From positions 62,001 to 126,000 of the forward strand of contig JANXYO010000103.1 in assembly GCA_025356015.1 (NCBI GenBank): 64,000 bases of DNA, in the 5' to 3' direction. This document shows positions 5,690 through 55,781 of this stretch, one piece after another. How positions within the stretch are numbered: position 1 is the stretch's first letter; each line of letters begins with the position of its first letter. A program made the position numbers and the translations under genes. Below the pieces are notes generated by a model. It saw only the letters and a list, made by a program, of their open reading frames with translations, was not told where the DNA came from and made no database searches. This stretch comes from Spirochaetaceae bacterium (GTDB lineage: Bacteria > Spirochaetota > Spirochaetia > Treponematales > Rectinemataceae).

Positions 5690-5962
5690 ATGGGCAAGAA
5701 ACTCTACGTCGGCAACCTCAGCTACAACACCTACGAGGACAATCTCCGCAACCTTTTCCAGTCTTTCGGGACGGTCGTCTCCGCGAAGATCATCACCGAC
5801 CGCGATTCCGGCAGCTCCAAGGGTTTCGGCTTCGTGGAGATGGGCTCCGACGATGAGGCCCGCGCCGCAATCTCCGGCGCCAATGGCGCCGACCTCGACG
5901 GCCGCCAGATCAAGGTCAACGAGGCGATGGACAAGCCCCGCCGCGACAACGACCGCTACTAG
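5690..5962 (+). CDS. RRM-type RNA-binding protein
   Basis: The 90-residue product is a single RNA-recognition motif with almost nothing else. RNP2 is KLYVGNLSY (residues 4-12) and RNP1 is KGFGFVEM. Between them are the usual helix YEDNLRNLFQSFG and the strand VVSAKIITDRDSGSSKG. A short basic C-terminal tail (DKPRRDNDRY) follows. Such small bacterial RRM proteins bind single-stranded RNA in the cytoplasm and in cyanobacteria are often cold-induced; the target here is unknown. AAGGA lies 8 bases before the ATG. The gene has its own long leader upstream and a strong terminator 30 bases downstream, so it is monocistronic. Confidence 0.95.
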   Translation: MGKKLYVGNLSYNTYEDNLRNLFQSFGTVVSAKIITDRDSGSSKGFGFVEMGSDDEARAAISGANGADLDGRQIKVNEAMDKPRRDNDRY

Positions 5963-6557: not shown

Positions 6558-6630
6558 TGAGCCGCACGTGATTCGAACACGTGACCCACGCCTTAAAAGG
6601 GCGTTGCTCTACCTACTGAGCTAGCGGCCC
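6558..6630 (-). tRNA. tRNA-Lys, anticodon UUU
   Basis: The 73-nt sequence folds as a full cloverleaf. The acceptor stem is GGGCCGC with GCGGCTC (one G-T pair). The D-stem is GCTC/GAGC, the anticodon stem ACGCC/GGCGT with loop CTTTTAA, and the T-stem ACGTG/CACGT with loop TTCGAAT. The anticodon is TTT. The discriminator is A and CCA is not encoded. This tRNA is the classic substrate for the t6A and ms2t6A modifications made by TsaC and MtaB, both encoded elsewhere in the window. Confidence 0.97.
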
Positions 6631-6639
6631 GCGACGGTT

Positions 6640-49793: not shown

Positions 49794-49935
49794 AGTCTCC
49801 TCGGGGCGCAATTGGCGCCGAACCTTTAGGCCACCGAAGCCAGCCACTGGTTGCAAGTAACTTTCGGCCTTGGCCTGGTGTTATCTCGCCATGGGGGGAA
49901 CCGTGCCGACACCTCGATTTGCGAGCGGAAGCGAC

Positions 49936-50679
49936 ATGAAGACCAGGATTCGAGCGCTCACCGTGCTGCTCGCATCCCTGCTAGTCGGTGCCATCTTCAT
50001 CGCCGCGACCTTTATTCTAGCTTCTTGCGCCTCAAAGGTCGATGCCTCCCTCCAAGAAGACGGAGGCCTCGAACTTTCCATTTCCGCCTCCGTGCCGCCC
50101 CTCGTCTCTGCGAAGCTGCGGAAGCTCGGCTCCCTCGCTCCCGACGCTGCCCTGTTCGACGCGGCTGCGATGCGCCAATCCCTCACCCAGCGTCCGGGCA
50201 CGAAGGTCATTGACCTGGTGGCCCCGACTCCGGATTCGATCCGCCTCGAGCTGTCCATAAGGAGCTTGGCCGATTTCATCGAATCCCCGGGAATGAAGGA
50301 GGGAGGCCTCATGCAAATGAGCCGAGGCCAGGGATGGACTGAGTTCCGCGTCCATCTCGAGCGCGGCCATGGCCAGGCCCTTTCTCTCCTCTTCCCGGCC
50401 CTGGACCCGGCCCTCGTTGACGCGCTTTCGCCCCCTGCCCTAGATGAGGAAGCCACAAGCCTTGGCGACTATCGCAAGATGCTCTCTGGTGTTTTCGGGG
50501 AAAAGAGCATGCCTGAGCTAAATGCCGCCGCTATAGAGATCGCCCTTCACGCACCCAACCAGGCGACATCTTGGGGAGGGGGCAAGCTATCCGGCTCGAC
50601 CCTTAACATCAGGCTGCCGATCATTGAGCTGCTGGTGCTGGAAAAGCCCGTGGATTTCTGGCTTCGCTGGCGGTCGTAA
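49936..50679 (+). CDS. Lipoprotein of unknown function
   Basis: The 247-residue product has a hydrophobic signal and a lipobox LASC with Cys31. The mature part contains GGLELSISASVPPLVSAKLRKLGSL, a helical middle and a strand-rich end with GKLSGSTLNIRLPIIELLVLEKPVDFWLRW. The ATG at 49936 (MKTRIRALTV) has GGAAG upstream and puts the signal at the N-terminus. Its stop is within the A-rich sequence that is the T tract of the minus-strand terminator, so it converges on the candidate small RNA. I do not recognise the family. Confidence 0.82.
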   Translation: MKTRIRALTVLLASLLVGAIFIAATFILASCASKVDASLQEDGGLELSISASVPPLVSAKLRKLGSLAPDAALFDAAAMRQSLTQRPGTKVIDLVAPTPDSIRLELSIRSLADFIESPGMKEGGLMQMSRGQGWTEFRVHLERGHGQALSLLFPALDPALVDALSPPALDEEATSLGDYRKMLSGVFGEKSMPELNAAAIEIALHAPNQATSWGGGKLSGSTLNIRLPIIELLVLEKPVDFWLRWRS

Positions 50680-50703
50680 AAAAAGGCCGCGATCACCGCG
50701 GCC
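50678..50703 (-). terminator. Intrinsic terminator on the minus strand
   Basis: GGCCGCG (50685-50691) pairs with CGCGGCC (50697-50703) around a five-base loop, and on the minus strand seven T follow (50684-50678). No minus-strand gene ends closer than 51064, which is 360 bases away. Confidence 0.9.
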
Positions 50704-50812
50704 CTTCCTGTGCTTCATTAAATTGTCTTTAAATTGTTTTTCATTACGCACGCATCTTTCTGACAAAAGAAACAATTTTTACATGCGCTTTTGCAATCAT
50801 TTTGCGCGGGCG
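50678..50812 (-). ncRNA. Candidate sigma54-dependent small RNA (about 135 nt)
   Basis: The region between the predicted sigma54 start (about 50812) and the intrinsic terminator holds no convincing gene. The RNA would begin with GC-rich bases, run through a long A/U-rich unpaired part with the direct repeat ACAAUUUAA twice in close succession, and end in the GGCCGCG stem and U7. This is a typical small-RNA plan: a single-stranded A/U-rich region, then a Rho-independent stem. An 18-codon frame starting ATGATTGCAAAA lies inside (50801-50745) without a ribosome site. The region is strikingly AT-rich against its surroundings. The sigma54 activator encoded directly upstream is the obvious controller. 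No expression evidence is available. Confidence 0.55.
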
Positions 50813-50822
50813 CCTATATGAA

Positions 50823-50838
50823 AGCACGTGCCGTGCCA
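50823..50838 (-). promoter_or_regulatory. Sigma54 (-24/-12) promoter
   Basis: On the minus strand the sequence TTGGCACG-GCAC-GTGCT matches the sigma54 consensus YTGGCACG-N4-TTGCW in all eight -24 bases and four of five -12 bases. The invariant GG and GC are 10 bases apart as required. Transcription should start near 50812. The inverted pair CCCTG (50953-50957)/CAGGG (50970-50974) about 140 bases upstream could be an activator site, but this is weak. Confidence 0.65.
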
Positions 50839-51063: not shown

Positions 51064-52506
51064 TCACACCCCCGCGCCTTGGTCCTCGATCCCAGGGTCG
51101 AGACCTCGACCCGTCTTGAGCCTCTTGTTGAGGGCGGTCCGCGAAAGGCCGACCATGTCGGCGGCTATGCCCTGGTTCCCCTTCGCGCGGCGCAGGGCTT
51201 CTCGCAGGAGTTCATCCGTCGCATCCTTGATCGTGGGTAGCTTGTCCCAACCAGAGAACCGGGTCTTCCCGTCCTCGCCGACGATCCTGGCCCGCATGCC
51301 CCTCCCCCCGGCCCTAGTCTTCTCCCTAAAACTATCAAGAGCAAGGGTGTTTCCCTTGCTGCGGCTCACCGCGTCGTACACCATCGACTCCAGCTCCCTT
51401 ATGTTCCCGGGAAACTCGTAGGACTCAAGCAGGACAGATACCTCGTCGGGAACGATCGGCATGTTCCTGCCGAGCCGCTCGGCCGCCGCCTTGGCGAAGT
51501 GGGCAAGCAGGAGAGGCAGGTCGTCAAGGCGTTCGCGCAGGGGGGGCAACTCCACAAGGTGGGTCTGCAGGCGGTAGAAAAGGTCGAGGCGGAAGGCGCC
51601 GGAGGCGGAGGCCGCGCGAAGGTCCCGGTTGGTGGCCGTCACCAGGGAGGCCGTGGTCGCCTTGGGAAGGTCGGCGCCTAAGGGATAGTAGCGCTTGTCC
51701 TCGATAAGCCGCAGCAGCTTGATCTGTGATCCGGGCGATAGCTCGCCGATCTCGTCCAGGAAGAGGGTACCCCCCTCGGCCCGCTCGATAAGGCCCCCCC
51801 TGTCGGTGTCGGCACCCGTGAAGGCGCCGCGTCTGTGTCCAAAAAGGCTGTCCGAGAACATCGTGTCGTCCAGCCCGGCGATGTTGAGGCTCACGTGGGG
51901 ACCGGCCCTGCCCGACAGGAGGTGCACGGCCTCGGCGACAAGCTCCTTGCCCGTGCCCGACTCGCCTACAACGAGGATGGGCTTCGGGGATTCGGAGACG
52001 GTCTCCACATAGCGCAGCACGCTGAGCATGCGTTCGTTGCGGGTGATTATCTTCGCGAAGGCTGGCGACTGCGGCGGCTTCGCGGCGAGCAGGGTGTCCT
52101 TGAGGGCAGAGTAGTCCCGCTGGAGTTCGCGGATGGACAGGGCATGCCTGATGCTGGCGGAAAGCCGTCCCGACTCGGCCGTCTTCGGGACATAGTCGAA
52201 GGCCCCGAGCCGCATGCACTCGATCGCCGAGTCCAGATCGCTCACCGCCGTCGCGACTATGACCGGCACCTCGGGATGGCGCTCACGCACCTCCTGGAGG
52301 ATCCTCTGACCCGGGATCGCCGGCATGAGGAGGTCCAGGACCATGACCGCGATCTCCCGCTCGCGCATGATGTCGGCGACCTGGCGTGGATCGCTGCAGG
52401 AGAGGACCTCGGGGAAGCCCTCGAACTTGAGGAGCCGCTCCATCCGCTTGAGCACATCGGGATCGTCATCGACGACGAGGATCGGTTTCCGGGTGGAATC
52501 TGTCAT
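51064..52506 (-). CDS. Sigma54-dependent response regulator (NtrC family)
   Basis: This regulator activates sigma54 RNA polymerase when phosphorylated. The 480-residue protein has a receiver domain (residues 8-120, Asp58 in VMVLDLLMP), and an AAA+ domain with Walker A GESGTGKE (181-188), the sigma54-contact loop GAFTGA (227-232) and Walker B TLFLDEIGEL. A Fis-type helix-turn-helix lies near the end (GNQGIAADMVGLSRTALNKRL). The start is the ATG at 52506 that overlaps the kinase stop as ATGA, so kinase and regulator are an exact pair. A perfect-looking sigma54 promoter lies 226 bases past its stop. Confidence 0.96.
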   Translation of the reverse strand: MTDSTRKPILVVDDDPDVLKRMERLLKFEGFPEVLSCSDPRQVADIMREREIAVMVLDLLMPAIPGQRILQEVRERHPEVPVIVATAVSDLDSAIECMRLGAFDYVPKTAESGRLSASIRHALSIRELQRDYSALKDTLLAAKPPQSPAFAKIITRNERMLSVLRYVETVSESPKPILVVGESGTGKELVAEAVHLLSGRAGPHVSLNIAGLDDTMFSDSLFGHRRGAFTGADTDRGGLIERAEGGTLFLDEIGELSPGSQIKLLRLIEDKRYYPLGADLPKATTASLVTATNRDLRAASASGAFRLDLFYRLQTHLVELPPLRERLDDLPLLLAHFAKAAAERLGRNMPIVPDEVSVLLESYEFPGNIRELESMVYDAVSRSKGNTLALDSFREKTRAGGRGMRARIVGEDGKTRFSGWDKLPTIKDATDELLREALRRAKGNQGIAADMVGLSRTALNKRLKTGRGLDPGIEDQGAGV

Positions 52507-55500
52507 GTGCTGCGCTCCTGTTCCGTGACTGGCAGGACGATTCGGACGACCGTCCCCTCTCCCGCCACCGAGTCGATTTCGATGTCTCCGCCGTATTCGC
52601 GGACAATGCCAAGCGAGACCGAGAGTCCTAGCCCCGTCCCCCCCCTGTCGCGCTTGGTCGTGAAGAATGGCTCGAAGATCCTTGAGCGTATCGAGGAGTC
52701 GATTCCCACGCCTTCGTCGGTGCACTCAAGGAAAACCTTCCCCTTGCTTGGATCCGAGAGGGCCCTCATCCTGACGGAGCGCTCGGGCCCGGGCAGGGAC
52801 TGCAAGGCGTTCTCGAGGACGTTGACCGCGACCTGGGTGAGCTTCTGGAAATCAGCCCTGGTCGGCGGCAGGCCCGCCGGTGCCTCGAGCGAAAAGCTCC
52901 GGGTCGAGCGCTCCACGAGTGGTCCAAGCAGGCGCGCCGCATAGGCGGCGACAGCGGATAGATCCACGGCATCGAGGGGCATGTTCGAGCTGTCCCTCGC
53001 GTAGTCCTTCAGGTCCTCAACGATCTTCTTGATCTGCTTGCCTGCGGCATAGGTATCGTTCAGCAGCTCGGGCAGCTCGTCCAGGAGCTCCTGGGCGCTC
53101 CAGCCCCGCACGCTGAAGCCCCCGGTGTCCAGCATCAGCCTGTACACGATGGGCGATATCTCCTTCCAGACCTCCGAGATGATCGGGAGATTGCGGAGCA
53201 CCGCGTTGTTTGGCGTATTGATCTCGTGGGCGACTCCGGCGGAGAGGACTCCGAGGGTCTTCAGCTTCTCGAACTCGGCGACGCGCCTGCGGGTCTCGAT
53301 GGCCTCCGATACGGCCCGCTTCAGCTCGACATGGGTGTCGACACGGGCGAAAAGCAGCTCTGTCGGCGCGAGTTTCGGAAGATAGTCGCTCGCCCCCGCG
53401 CGGAAGGCCTCGGCGACCGATTCGGAGCTGTCGCGGTCGGTCATCACTATCACGGGAAGTTCGCTCAGCGACTTCCTGGTCCTGATCCGCTCGCAGACGG
53501 CGAGGCCGTCACGCCTGGGGCTCGATGCATCAAGGAGCACAAGGTCGATCCGGGGGTCCTCGACCGCGATGGCGGCGACCCGTTCGGCCGAGAGCTCGGG
53601 GAGGACGGCATAGCCGCGGTCCTCGAGGTAGTGCTTGAGCGCCTCGAGGAAGACCGGATCCTGGTCAAACACCAGCACTCGGCCACGCCGCTTCCCGTCA
53701 TCGTGGGTCTCCGCGAGGTCGACAGCCGCGTGTCGCTGTGGCCTGCTGCCGAAACCGAATCGCTCGACGAGGAGGCTGGTCGTCGACTTCCGCCGCGACT
53801 CCCTCTGCTCGAGGGGCCAGGCGGGTTCCAGGGGGAGGCTCAGGACGAATTGCCCGCCATCTCCCATCCTCTGATAGGAGAGCTTCCCGCCAAGCCCCTC
53901 TGCAAGCAAGCGGGTCACAAGGAGCTCGAGGCCCGGCCCGAGGGTCTCAGGATCCTCGATGCCTCCCGAGGAAAGGACACGCGAGAGCACCTCCTCAGAT
54001 GGAGGGGGGGCGGAACCGGCGAAGACGAGCCTGACCTCGCTGCCCACGACGGCGCCGCGGATCGAGACCATGCCTTTGGGGCTTCGCTTGAGTGCATCGG
54101 CGAAGAGGTTGTAGACAATCTGCTGCAGAGATTTGACGTCGGTGACGATCTCGAGTCCCGGGATGTTCTTCTCGATTCCGATGTCCCTCCCTGCGGCGAG
54201 GTGGGCGGCGACGCCGGCCGCCCCCTCGACCGCTTCCTTGAGGGATATCCGCTCGGCGACGAGGGCTATGTCGCCATGCCGGAGCCTCGCATAGGTCGCG
54301 ATGTTCGCCACGCTGTTGAGGAGCCTCGTTGATTCCGCGTGGATAAGGGATACCAGCCTGAGCTCCTCGGCCCCTGCCCCTTCCCCCATGAATTCCCAGA
54401 GCCTGTCGGCCAGGCCGACAATGCCGTACAGGGGAGAGCGGAACTCGAGGCTGGTCCCAATGAGGAATTCCTCCTTGACCTTGTTGGCCCGCTCCAGGAG
54501 CTCGATCGATAGCCGCTGCTCCTTCTCCTTTTCGACGCGCATGGAGTTGACGGTGTCAGATATCCCGAAGGAGAGGAGGAGGACCTGGGCGAGGCCGCCC
54601 AGCTGCTCGCTCCTCGACCAGATGAGCTCCGATCCTCCCGAGAACAGGCCCAGGGTGCGCAGTTCCGCGACCGTGCCTCCCAGGAATACGAGGATCCAGG
54701 CGCCAACGAAGTAATAGGCCTGGCGCTTCCCCTTCTGGGCAGACCTTATCCCGGCCAGGAGGACATTCGAGAGCCCGGAGAAGACCACGATGCTGCCCAG
54801 CTTCATGGCCAGCCTGAAGTCGAGCACGGTGAGCCCGAGGAGGAGGAGGGGCACTGCGGCGACATGGAGCATGAGCACTCTGTCCATGGCCGGAGCGCTT
54901 CGGCGCGTGTCCATGTAGGCCCTCGCGAAGAGGCAGACACCGACGAGCATCATGCACAGGAAAAAGGCGTTCATCCGCTGCCCAAGCCACGCGTTCTCGG
55001 GCCAGAGTATGGCGAGGCCCGCCCCGTTCGCGGAGAGCATGTAGAAGAAGAAGCCCAGAAGGTACACGAGGTAGAAGGCGTAGGACCTCTCCCTGAGGGA
55101 GATGACGATGAAGAGGGTGTATAGGAAGACGGCGAGGACGACGCCCAGGATGATTCCCACAACCGCCGTGTTCGCAGCGTCAGTCCTTATATAGGAGTGG
55201 GCGTCCCACAGAGAGGCCCGCACGCGCAGCGCCTGCTCTGAGGCAAATCGCAGGTACACCGTCTTCACCTCGCCGGGACCGACGGTCAGGCGGAACACGA
55301 AGTCGGAAAGTGCGTGGCGGAGTTCCCCCACAGGTTCAGTCGCGCCCGCTGTCTGGGTCTCGGTCCGTCCGTCGGGATCGACCACATAGACGGCTACCGA
55401 ATCCGTGGTGTTCGGTCCGAGGGCGAGAAGCCAGGAGCGCGCCGAGGCGGCGCTTCTGACGGAGAAGCAGAGCCAGATGGCGGTCTGGGTATAGCCGCGG

Positions 55501-55781
55501 TTCAGGTCGGTCCAGCCGCGGATCGGCCTGAAGAGCCTGAGGTCGGGAACGAAGTCGAGGGAGGCAGGAGCCTCGCCAGGACTGCCTTCCTCATGGATGA
55601 GGACCAGTCCCGCGAGATCCACCCGTGAGGTCGAATCGCGTAGCTCGACCATGGGTGCGACGCTCTTGGCGCTCCCCGCGGGGTATGCGACCGAGGCCCT
55701 GAAATCGGCGCTTGCGCATTCGCCGTGGCCGAGGAGGAAGCAGGCGAGGGAGAGGCTGAAGACAAGAAAGCGCATGGTCAT
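52503..55781 (-). CDS. 7TMR-DISM hybrid sensor kinase with pseudokinase and receiver
   Basis: The 1092-residue protein senses through an N-terminal exported 7TMR-DISMED2-type domain (about 40-190) and a seven-helix membrane domain (about 205-410). A first kinase module at 420-650 keeps the fold but reads SLEFRSPL (residues 444-451) where SHELRTPL is expected: Leu445 replaces the phospho-histidine. Its N-box has Asp for the second Asn and there is no DxGxG. A receiver domain (700-815, Asp751) follows, then an intact kinase (His852 in SAGVAHEINTP; N-box NVLENALQ; DEGVGID; GGTGLGLS). The ATG has no ribosome site; CATACT lies 11 bases before it. The regulator gene overlaps its stop. Confidence 0.93.
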   Translation of the reverse strand: MTMRFLVFSLSLACFLLGHGECASADFRASVAYPAGSAKSVAPMVELRDSTSRVDLAGLVLIHEEGSPGEAPASLDFVPDLRLFRPIRGWTDLNRGYTQTAIWLCFSVRSAASARSWLLALGPNTTDSVAVYVVDPDGRTETQTAGATEPVGELRHALSDFVFRLTVGPGEVKTVYLRFASEQALRVRASLWDAHSYIRTDAANTAVVGIILGVVLAVFLYTLFIVISLRERSYAFYLVYLLGFFFYMLSANGAGLAILWPENAWLGQRMNAFFLCMMLVGVCLFARAYMDTRRSAPAMDRVLMLHVAAVPLLLLGLTVLDFRLAMKLGSIVVFSGLSNVLLAGIRSAQKGKRQAYYFVGAWILVFLGGTVAELRTLGLFSGGSELIWSRSEQLGGLAQVLLLSFGISDTVNSMRVEKEKEQRLSIELLERANKVKEEFLIGTSLEFRSPLYGIVGLADRLWEFMGEGAGAEELRLVSLIHAESTRLLNSVANIATYARLRHGDIALVAERISLKEAVEGAAGVAAHLAAGRDIGIEKNIPGLEIVTDVKSLQQIVYNLFADALKRSPKGMVSIRGAVVGSEVRLVFAGSAPPPSEEVLSRVLSSGGIEDPETLGPGLELLVTRLLAEGLGGKLSYQRMGDGGQFVLSLPLEPAWPLEQRESRRKSTTSLLVERFGFGSRPQRHAAVDLAETHDDGKRRGRVLVFDQDPVFLEALKHYLEDRGYAVLPELSAERVAAIAVEDPRIDLVLLDASSPRRDGLAVCERIRTRKSLSELPVIVMTDRDSSESVAEAFRAGASDYLPKLAPTELLFARVDTHVELKRAVSEAIETRRRVAEFEKLKTLGVLSAGVAHEINTPNNAVLRNLPIISEVWKEISPIVYRLMLDTGGFSVRGWSAQELLDELPELLNDTYAAGKQIKKIVEDLKDYARDSSNMPLDAVDLSAVAAYAARLLGPLVERSTRSFSLEAPAGLPPTRADFQKLTQVAVNVLENALQSLPGPERSVRMRALSDPSKGKVFLECTDEGVGIDSSIRSRIFEPFFTTKRDRGGTGLGLSVSLGIVREYGGDIEIDSVAGEGTVVRIVLPVTEQERST

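Follow-up and report, generated by a model that had tools for sequence, protein, structure and literature searches.

A putative sigma54-dependent small RNA gene next to that of its presumed activator, conserved in the class Spirochaetia and carrying a repeated motif in many relatives

Genes and signals at the locus

The window (the whole stretch of 64,000 nucleotides that was analysed) carries on its minus strand a gene for a hybrid histidine kinase with a 7TMR-DISM sensor (52503-55781), the presumed partner of the response regulator encoded by the following gene (51064-52506, minus strand). This regulator is a sigma54 activator with a REC domain, an AAA+ domain that contains GAFTGA and a Fis-type HTH, and it is the presumed activator of the RNA described here. 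An earlier note on this DNA had proposed a sigma54-driven small RNA beside this GAFTGA activator and its kinase, and the features that it listed were found again. The -24/-12 promoter TTGGCACGGCACGTGC is located at 50839-50824 on the minus strand with the correct GG-N10-GC spacing, and it is kept in all the relatives of the window's own clade. The C at -12 is position 50824, so that the +1 read from the window sequence is predicted at 50812, the start given in that note. From there a predicted noncoding small RNA of ~135-nt (50812-50678, minus strand), which has orthologous elements at 44 other loci, would extend to an intrinsic terminator at ~50705-50678 (minus strand), i.e., a G+C-rich hairpin, AGGGCCGCGG-TGA-TCGCGGCCTT, followed by TTTTT, with the T-run ending near 50678. 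This hairpin was not listed by the automatic terminator scan of the window, and was found by stem search and folding instead. No convincing gene lies between the promoter and the terminator, where the minus-strand ORFs are overlapping mechanical frames, and the direct repeat noted before in this interval is present as ACAATTTAA at 50737-50729 and 50726-50718. On the plus strand, a convergent gene without a Pfam match (49870-50679) has its stop codon abutting the T-run of the terminator, and hence the window transcript is not a leader of the next gene.

Taken alone in its own genome, the window promoter match is not significant. The chance test with TTGGCACGNNNNNTGC, allowing up to one mismatch, gave 1 match in the window (an exact one) vs 0.97 expected; TGGCACGNNNNNTGC has 20 exact matches across the 4.17 Mb genome, and at one mismatch its count there is not above that of the reversed pattern. 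The promoter is taken as more than a chance match because it is conserved at the same place in the relatives, being kept at 10/10 loci of the own clade. The rpoN gene was found in the genome, so that neither the absence of rpoN nor the loss of the promoter in close relatives, two of the outcomes that the earlier note had named as refuting its proposal, was observed.

Upstream of the promoter there is a candidate activator-site region (51068-50952, minus strand), which is imperfect in the window and conserved in the alignment with four relatives (L052-L055). It comprises TGTG at 51068-51065, overlapping the regulator stop codon, the candidate half-site GGCACA at 51039-51034, and the candidate site GCACAGGGG at 50960-50952, all on the minus strand. 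Two paralogous activators of the same genome (G000:C69:71877-73435 and G000:C148:25905-27983) each have an exact sigma54 promoter downstream; no repeats were found downstream of either, and the promoters lead into genes for histidine-kinase-like and CheW-like proteins.

Conservation of the element with its regulator

Since a DNA search with the 424-base region gave nothing above noise other than the region itself, the comparison was run via the regulator protein: orthologues were taken from a regulator scan of genome contigs and Spirochaetia genomes, and the downstream regions were then read. The genomes of the relatives are mostly draft metagenome assemblies. A strict pattern (promoter plus two repeats) gave only 3 matches in 393 genomes of the phylum, because real members differ in distance, and the regulator-guided search gave many more. 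The own clade comprises 10 loci (the window, L052-L059 and L171) with regulators that are 54-79% identical; in 10/10 of them a sigma54 promoter is located 228-268-nt past the matched stretch of the regulator; beyond the promoter, each of the nine relatives has GTAAAA 2-4 times. The pattern is repeated in a second clade (f9, f17, f18, f22, f81-f84 and others), whose regulators are ~41-48% identical and have recognition helices of the SQSTLSR type. All the own-clade regulators and most of those in the second clade have a sigma54 promoter 130-280-nt downstream, then an untranslated stretch and usually a terminator, and over the 45 elements terminators were found in 33, vs 1.3% of dinucleotide shuffles. 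The array is missing near the related regulators of f6, f19 and the f79 group, and the relatives from Nitrospirae and Deltaproteobacteria have sigma54 sites without arrays. On a regulator tree of 165 rows, 'element present' took 8 changes vs 39.7 in shuffles (0/500 as low), a low count to which close copies contribute, and the positive clades lie apart with negatives between them. The element thus appears to track the regulator lineage in two positive clades, whether or not these have a single origin.

The kinase adjoins the regulator in the own clade and is not adjacent in the second clade, so that the conserved unit is the regulator plus the RNA. In the second clade (L180, L181, L182, L212, L213 and others) a small response-regulator gene (VDDSMFVAKQLSQILTSAGF...) is commonly located 3′ of the element, and it is also present where the element is missing. 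The regulator of genome G232 is directly followed by a response-regulator gene and has no element.

In the relatives, palindromes sit between the regulator stop codon and the promoter. Regulators with the recognition helix SRTALN or SRSALN have TGTG(C)...(G)CACA palindromes, complete in the relatives and half kept in the window's candidate sites, and those with SQSTLSR or close variants have ATGCA-N3-TGCAT, often 2-3 times, near -178, -160 and -94. In 1.2 Mb of genome G319 sampled away from the element, ATGCA-N3-TGCAT was not found. That the palindromes co-vary with the recognition helix is the best evidence for the neighbour as the activator, and, judging from these sequences, the RNA is very probably driven by it. 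The same place, the promoter type, the terminator and the HTH-matched palindromes are all conserved, which strongly supports the presence of a small RNA gene that depends on sigma54 and adjoins the gene of its activator, as put forward in the earlier note, and its maintenance across the class Spirochaetia; the features expected of such a gene, i.e., a -24/-12 promoter, an adjacent activator, rpoN, a terminator and the lack of an ORF, were all found. Between the regulator and the promoter, two relatives (L053, ~6590-6620; L054, ~6602-6632) have a perfect hairpin with a T-run (CTTGTAGAC...GTCTACAAG), which is probably the regulator operon's own terminator and would separate the operon from the RNA gene.

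The repeated GUAAAA motif

The RNA of the relatives contains up to 7 copies of ANGUAAAAA, with an inter-motif spacing that is most often 12-nt, although 11, 13, 14 and 15-nt also occur. GTAAAA is present 2-7 times in 29 of the 45 elements, once in 10 and not at all in 6; the 16 with fewer than two, including that of the window, were accepted on position, promoter and sequence similarity. GTAAAA was found 102 times in the sense and once in the antisense orientation (45 elements, 6.3 kb), the sense count being inflated by selection on sense GTAAAA, and the next-best permutation of its letters reached 29, a count due in large part to overlap with the motif. In a fairer control, sigma54 sites downstream of non-family activators (lists read by eye), only scattered single GTAAAA were observed. 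The consensus around GUAAAA has an A at -2 (96%), no C at -1, and an A after the motif (86%). The pattern RGTAAAAAN{4,8}GTAAAAA matched in 15/24 element-bearing genomes, at the element only in 14 of the 15 and at another place in the remaining one, G541.

Short regular repeats beside a promoter are typical of DNA sites, and a repressor or a nucleoid protein could bind them, so that the GTAAAA array might act on the DNA as protein sites or phased A-tracts. This is very unlikely given the strand bias, the invariable position of the copies in the promoter-to-terminator interval, the usual 12-nt spacing, which is out of helical phase, and the conserved terminator, which would serve no purpose. The spacing bears also on coding. 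The 12-nt unit of f83 (L196) keeps one frame open, but spacings of 11, 13, 14 and 15-nt break any frame and AGGUAA gives a stop in one of them, and a peptide was rejected on the motif spacing. The promoter of f12 (L336) is followed by a lipoprotein gene, with no clear terminator in between, as would be the case with a leader, but the next gene is convergent in the own clade and the downstream genes vary among lineages. Hence, it is extremely improbable that the transcript serves as a short-peptide mRNA or as the leader of a protein gene located downstream.

In the 28 folded members, the mean unpaired probability of GUAAAA was 0.73, vs 0.50 for the remaining RNA body (p = 7e-8). Motifs predicted to be single-stranded would also suit a trans-acting base-pairing sRNA, with the GUAAAA copies as repeated seeds for UUUUAC in target mRNAs, and some short members, e.g., f82, hold one motif between hairpins, as a single seed would require. 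Near gene starts of genome G319, TTTTAC ranked 7th of 30 permutations, slightly over the median, but it showed no clear enrichment near start or stop codons in 1.2 Mb of this genome, and neither did TTTTTAC, TTTTACC and TTTTACT around starts. Furthermore, an A/U-rich seed of 6-7-nt would pair weakly, Hfq is absent, and regular 12-nt arrays with up to 7 identical sites better suit protein binding, so that we consider base pairing through repeated seeds unlikely. The earlier note had expected a conserved -24/-12 element, terminator and seed; the first two are conserved, but the signature of the family is the ANGUAAAAA array, with no obvious base-pairing seed.

The window RNA has the family motif in one clear copy, GUAAAAA, at 50776-50782 on the minus strand (context AUGUAAAAA); in the whole window GTAAAA occurs once on the plus and twice on the minus strand. 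The ACAAUUUAA repeat resembles the motif in degenerate form, with GUAAUGAAAAA and two ACAAUUUAA tentatively assigned as copies at 50718-50747 (minus strand), and U/A variants that resemble them are present in L215 and L216. The family member of genome G163 likewise has degenerate repeats. By its sequence, the window RNA appears to be a divergent family member with one clear site and degenerate ones, and its function is less certain than that of the family. With one GUAAAA vs 2-4 in the own-clade relatives, and with imperfect palindromes, the window copy could be a decaying or functionally shifted remnant of a real family. The promoter, its spacing, the terminator and the kinase-regulator operon are intact, however, and a full -24/-12 element is normally kept only by genes in use, which makes a remnant rather improbable.

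Known systems, candidate partners and the proposed decoy

GlmY (GlrR) and Qrr (LuxO) are sigma54-dependent sRNAs, some of them encoded beside their activator; they act by base pairing or by binding an adapter, and have no motif arrays. The earlier note had compared the element with these two; the dependence on sigma54, predicted here, and the place beside the activator are in common, but the motif array is not, and CrcZ beside CbrB is the closer system. RsmX/Y/Z and CsrB/C, which are under two-component control, carry a short motif in many copies and titrate a protein, and a short motif is likewise repeated in the RNA of the relatives. The CsrA motif is GGA in hairpin loops, whereas here the promoter is of the sigma54 type and the motif that is repeated, in predicted single strands, is not GGA but GUAAAA. 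The likeness to CbrA/CbrB-CrcZ (CrcY, CrcX) extends to an sRNA gene that has a sigma54 promoter to itself and is located directly 3′ of a sigma54 response-regulator gene; to regulator-type sites upstream of this promoter, which co-vary with the recognition helix in the relatives and are imperfect in the window; to activation, presumed here, by the neighbouring regulator; and to repeated A-rich sites, predicted here to be unpaired, which would again titrate an RNA-binding protein. Two or more motif copies are present in 29/45 family members, the window having one clear copy. The repeated sites of CrcZ are CA motifs, in contrast to ANGUAAAAA here; CrcZ is longer than the spirochaete element and acts on Hfq/Crc, whereas the spirochaete genomes tested lack Hfq; and CbrA is a kinase of the SLC5 transporter type, in place of the 7TMR-DISM hybrid. 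CrcZ is located downstream of cbrB, depends on sigma-N and is activated by CbrB, and CbrAB-CrcZ has been described as unique to Pseudomonadaceae (PMC8871633).

The Bacteroides RNAs FopS/GibS, which resemble the element in having a single-stranded 5′ part and a terminator, are associated with the RRM protein RbpB, and small RRM proteins are in use in these bacteria (PMC11697453). They differ from the element in that they are multicopy base-pairing RNAs with neither a motif array nor a sigma54 promoter, and their Rfam match to the window was sub-threshold (18.6 bits, cut-off 56). No family of Rfam 15, GlmY and Qrr included, matched at curated scores, and no report of this element was found in the open-access literature. 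To our knowledge, hardly any sRNA regulons have been described in free-living spirochaetes.

Hfq was sought in 31 element-bearing genomes and found in none (0/31), and it is also absent from the own genome; control genomes were positive, and a decoy for Hfq was thereby ruled out. RRM_1 proteins are encoded in 26/31 of these genomes, and the own genome has three RRM genes and also encodes CsrA. A small RRM-domain RNA-binding protein (MGKKLYVGNLSYNTYEDNL...) is encoded at 5690-5962 of the window, on the plus strand, and belongs to a protein class that could supply the partner in RNA regulation without Hfq. Both small RRM proteins and CsrA are candidate partners, tied to the RNA only by co-presence. 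In 1.2 Mb of genome G319, GTAAAA was not enriched near start or stop codons, and mRNA sites that a titrated protein would share with the RNA were not found; neither was GTAAAA consistently close to the RRM genes, taken as autoregulated targets.

From the observed gene architecture and motif array, we infer the following course of phosphorylation, transcription and titration. Within the own clade, the regulator would be phosphorylated by the kinase encoded next to it. The regulator would bind the palindromes that lie between the end of its gene and the promoter, as the co-variation strongly suggests. The sigma54 RNA polymerase would then make an RNA of ~70-250-nt that ends at the intrinsic terminator, as the conserved signals predict. 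This RNA would display several unpaired ANGUAAAAA sites, most often 12-nt apart, and may serve as a decoy for an RNA-binding protein other than Hfq, which it would titrate in the way of CrcZ with Hfq/Crc or RsmZ with RsmA. Because of the analogy with CrcZ we favour, with a probability of about 0.6, a conserved sigma54-dependent decoy RNA that titrates a non-Hfq RNA-binding protein, and take the window copy, with its one clear site, to be a divergent representative. A bolder version, which we put forward only tentatively, is that the Hfq-free ANGUAAAAA-array decoy titrates a global RNA-binding protein, possibly a small RRM protein; the system would then parallel CbrAB-CrcZ by convergence, and its RNA may be the first decoy for a bacterial RRM protein. 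This conserved two-component regulator, with a motif-filled RNA as its apparent main product, offers a lead to a global post-transcriptional control protein, for which the RNA array is a ready-made bait.

Among genomes that are regulator-positive and element-negative, only L336 (f12) resembled an element in trans. In L336, L329 and L330, sigma54 promoters lead into lipoprotein-like genes by a leader with 1-2 GUAAAA, and GCATAG-type sites lie upstream of two of these promoters; the three may be additional targets of this regulator, or mRNAs controlled by the RNA-binding protein of the decoy model. In addition, a second GTAAAAA array with at least four copies was observed in genome G541 (L243, 1340-1410; G541:C55), directly 3′ of the stop codon of a gene that resembles one for an outer-membrane protein and followed by a hairpin; this array may be a copy of the decoy that is carried on an mRNA.
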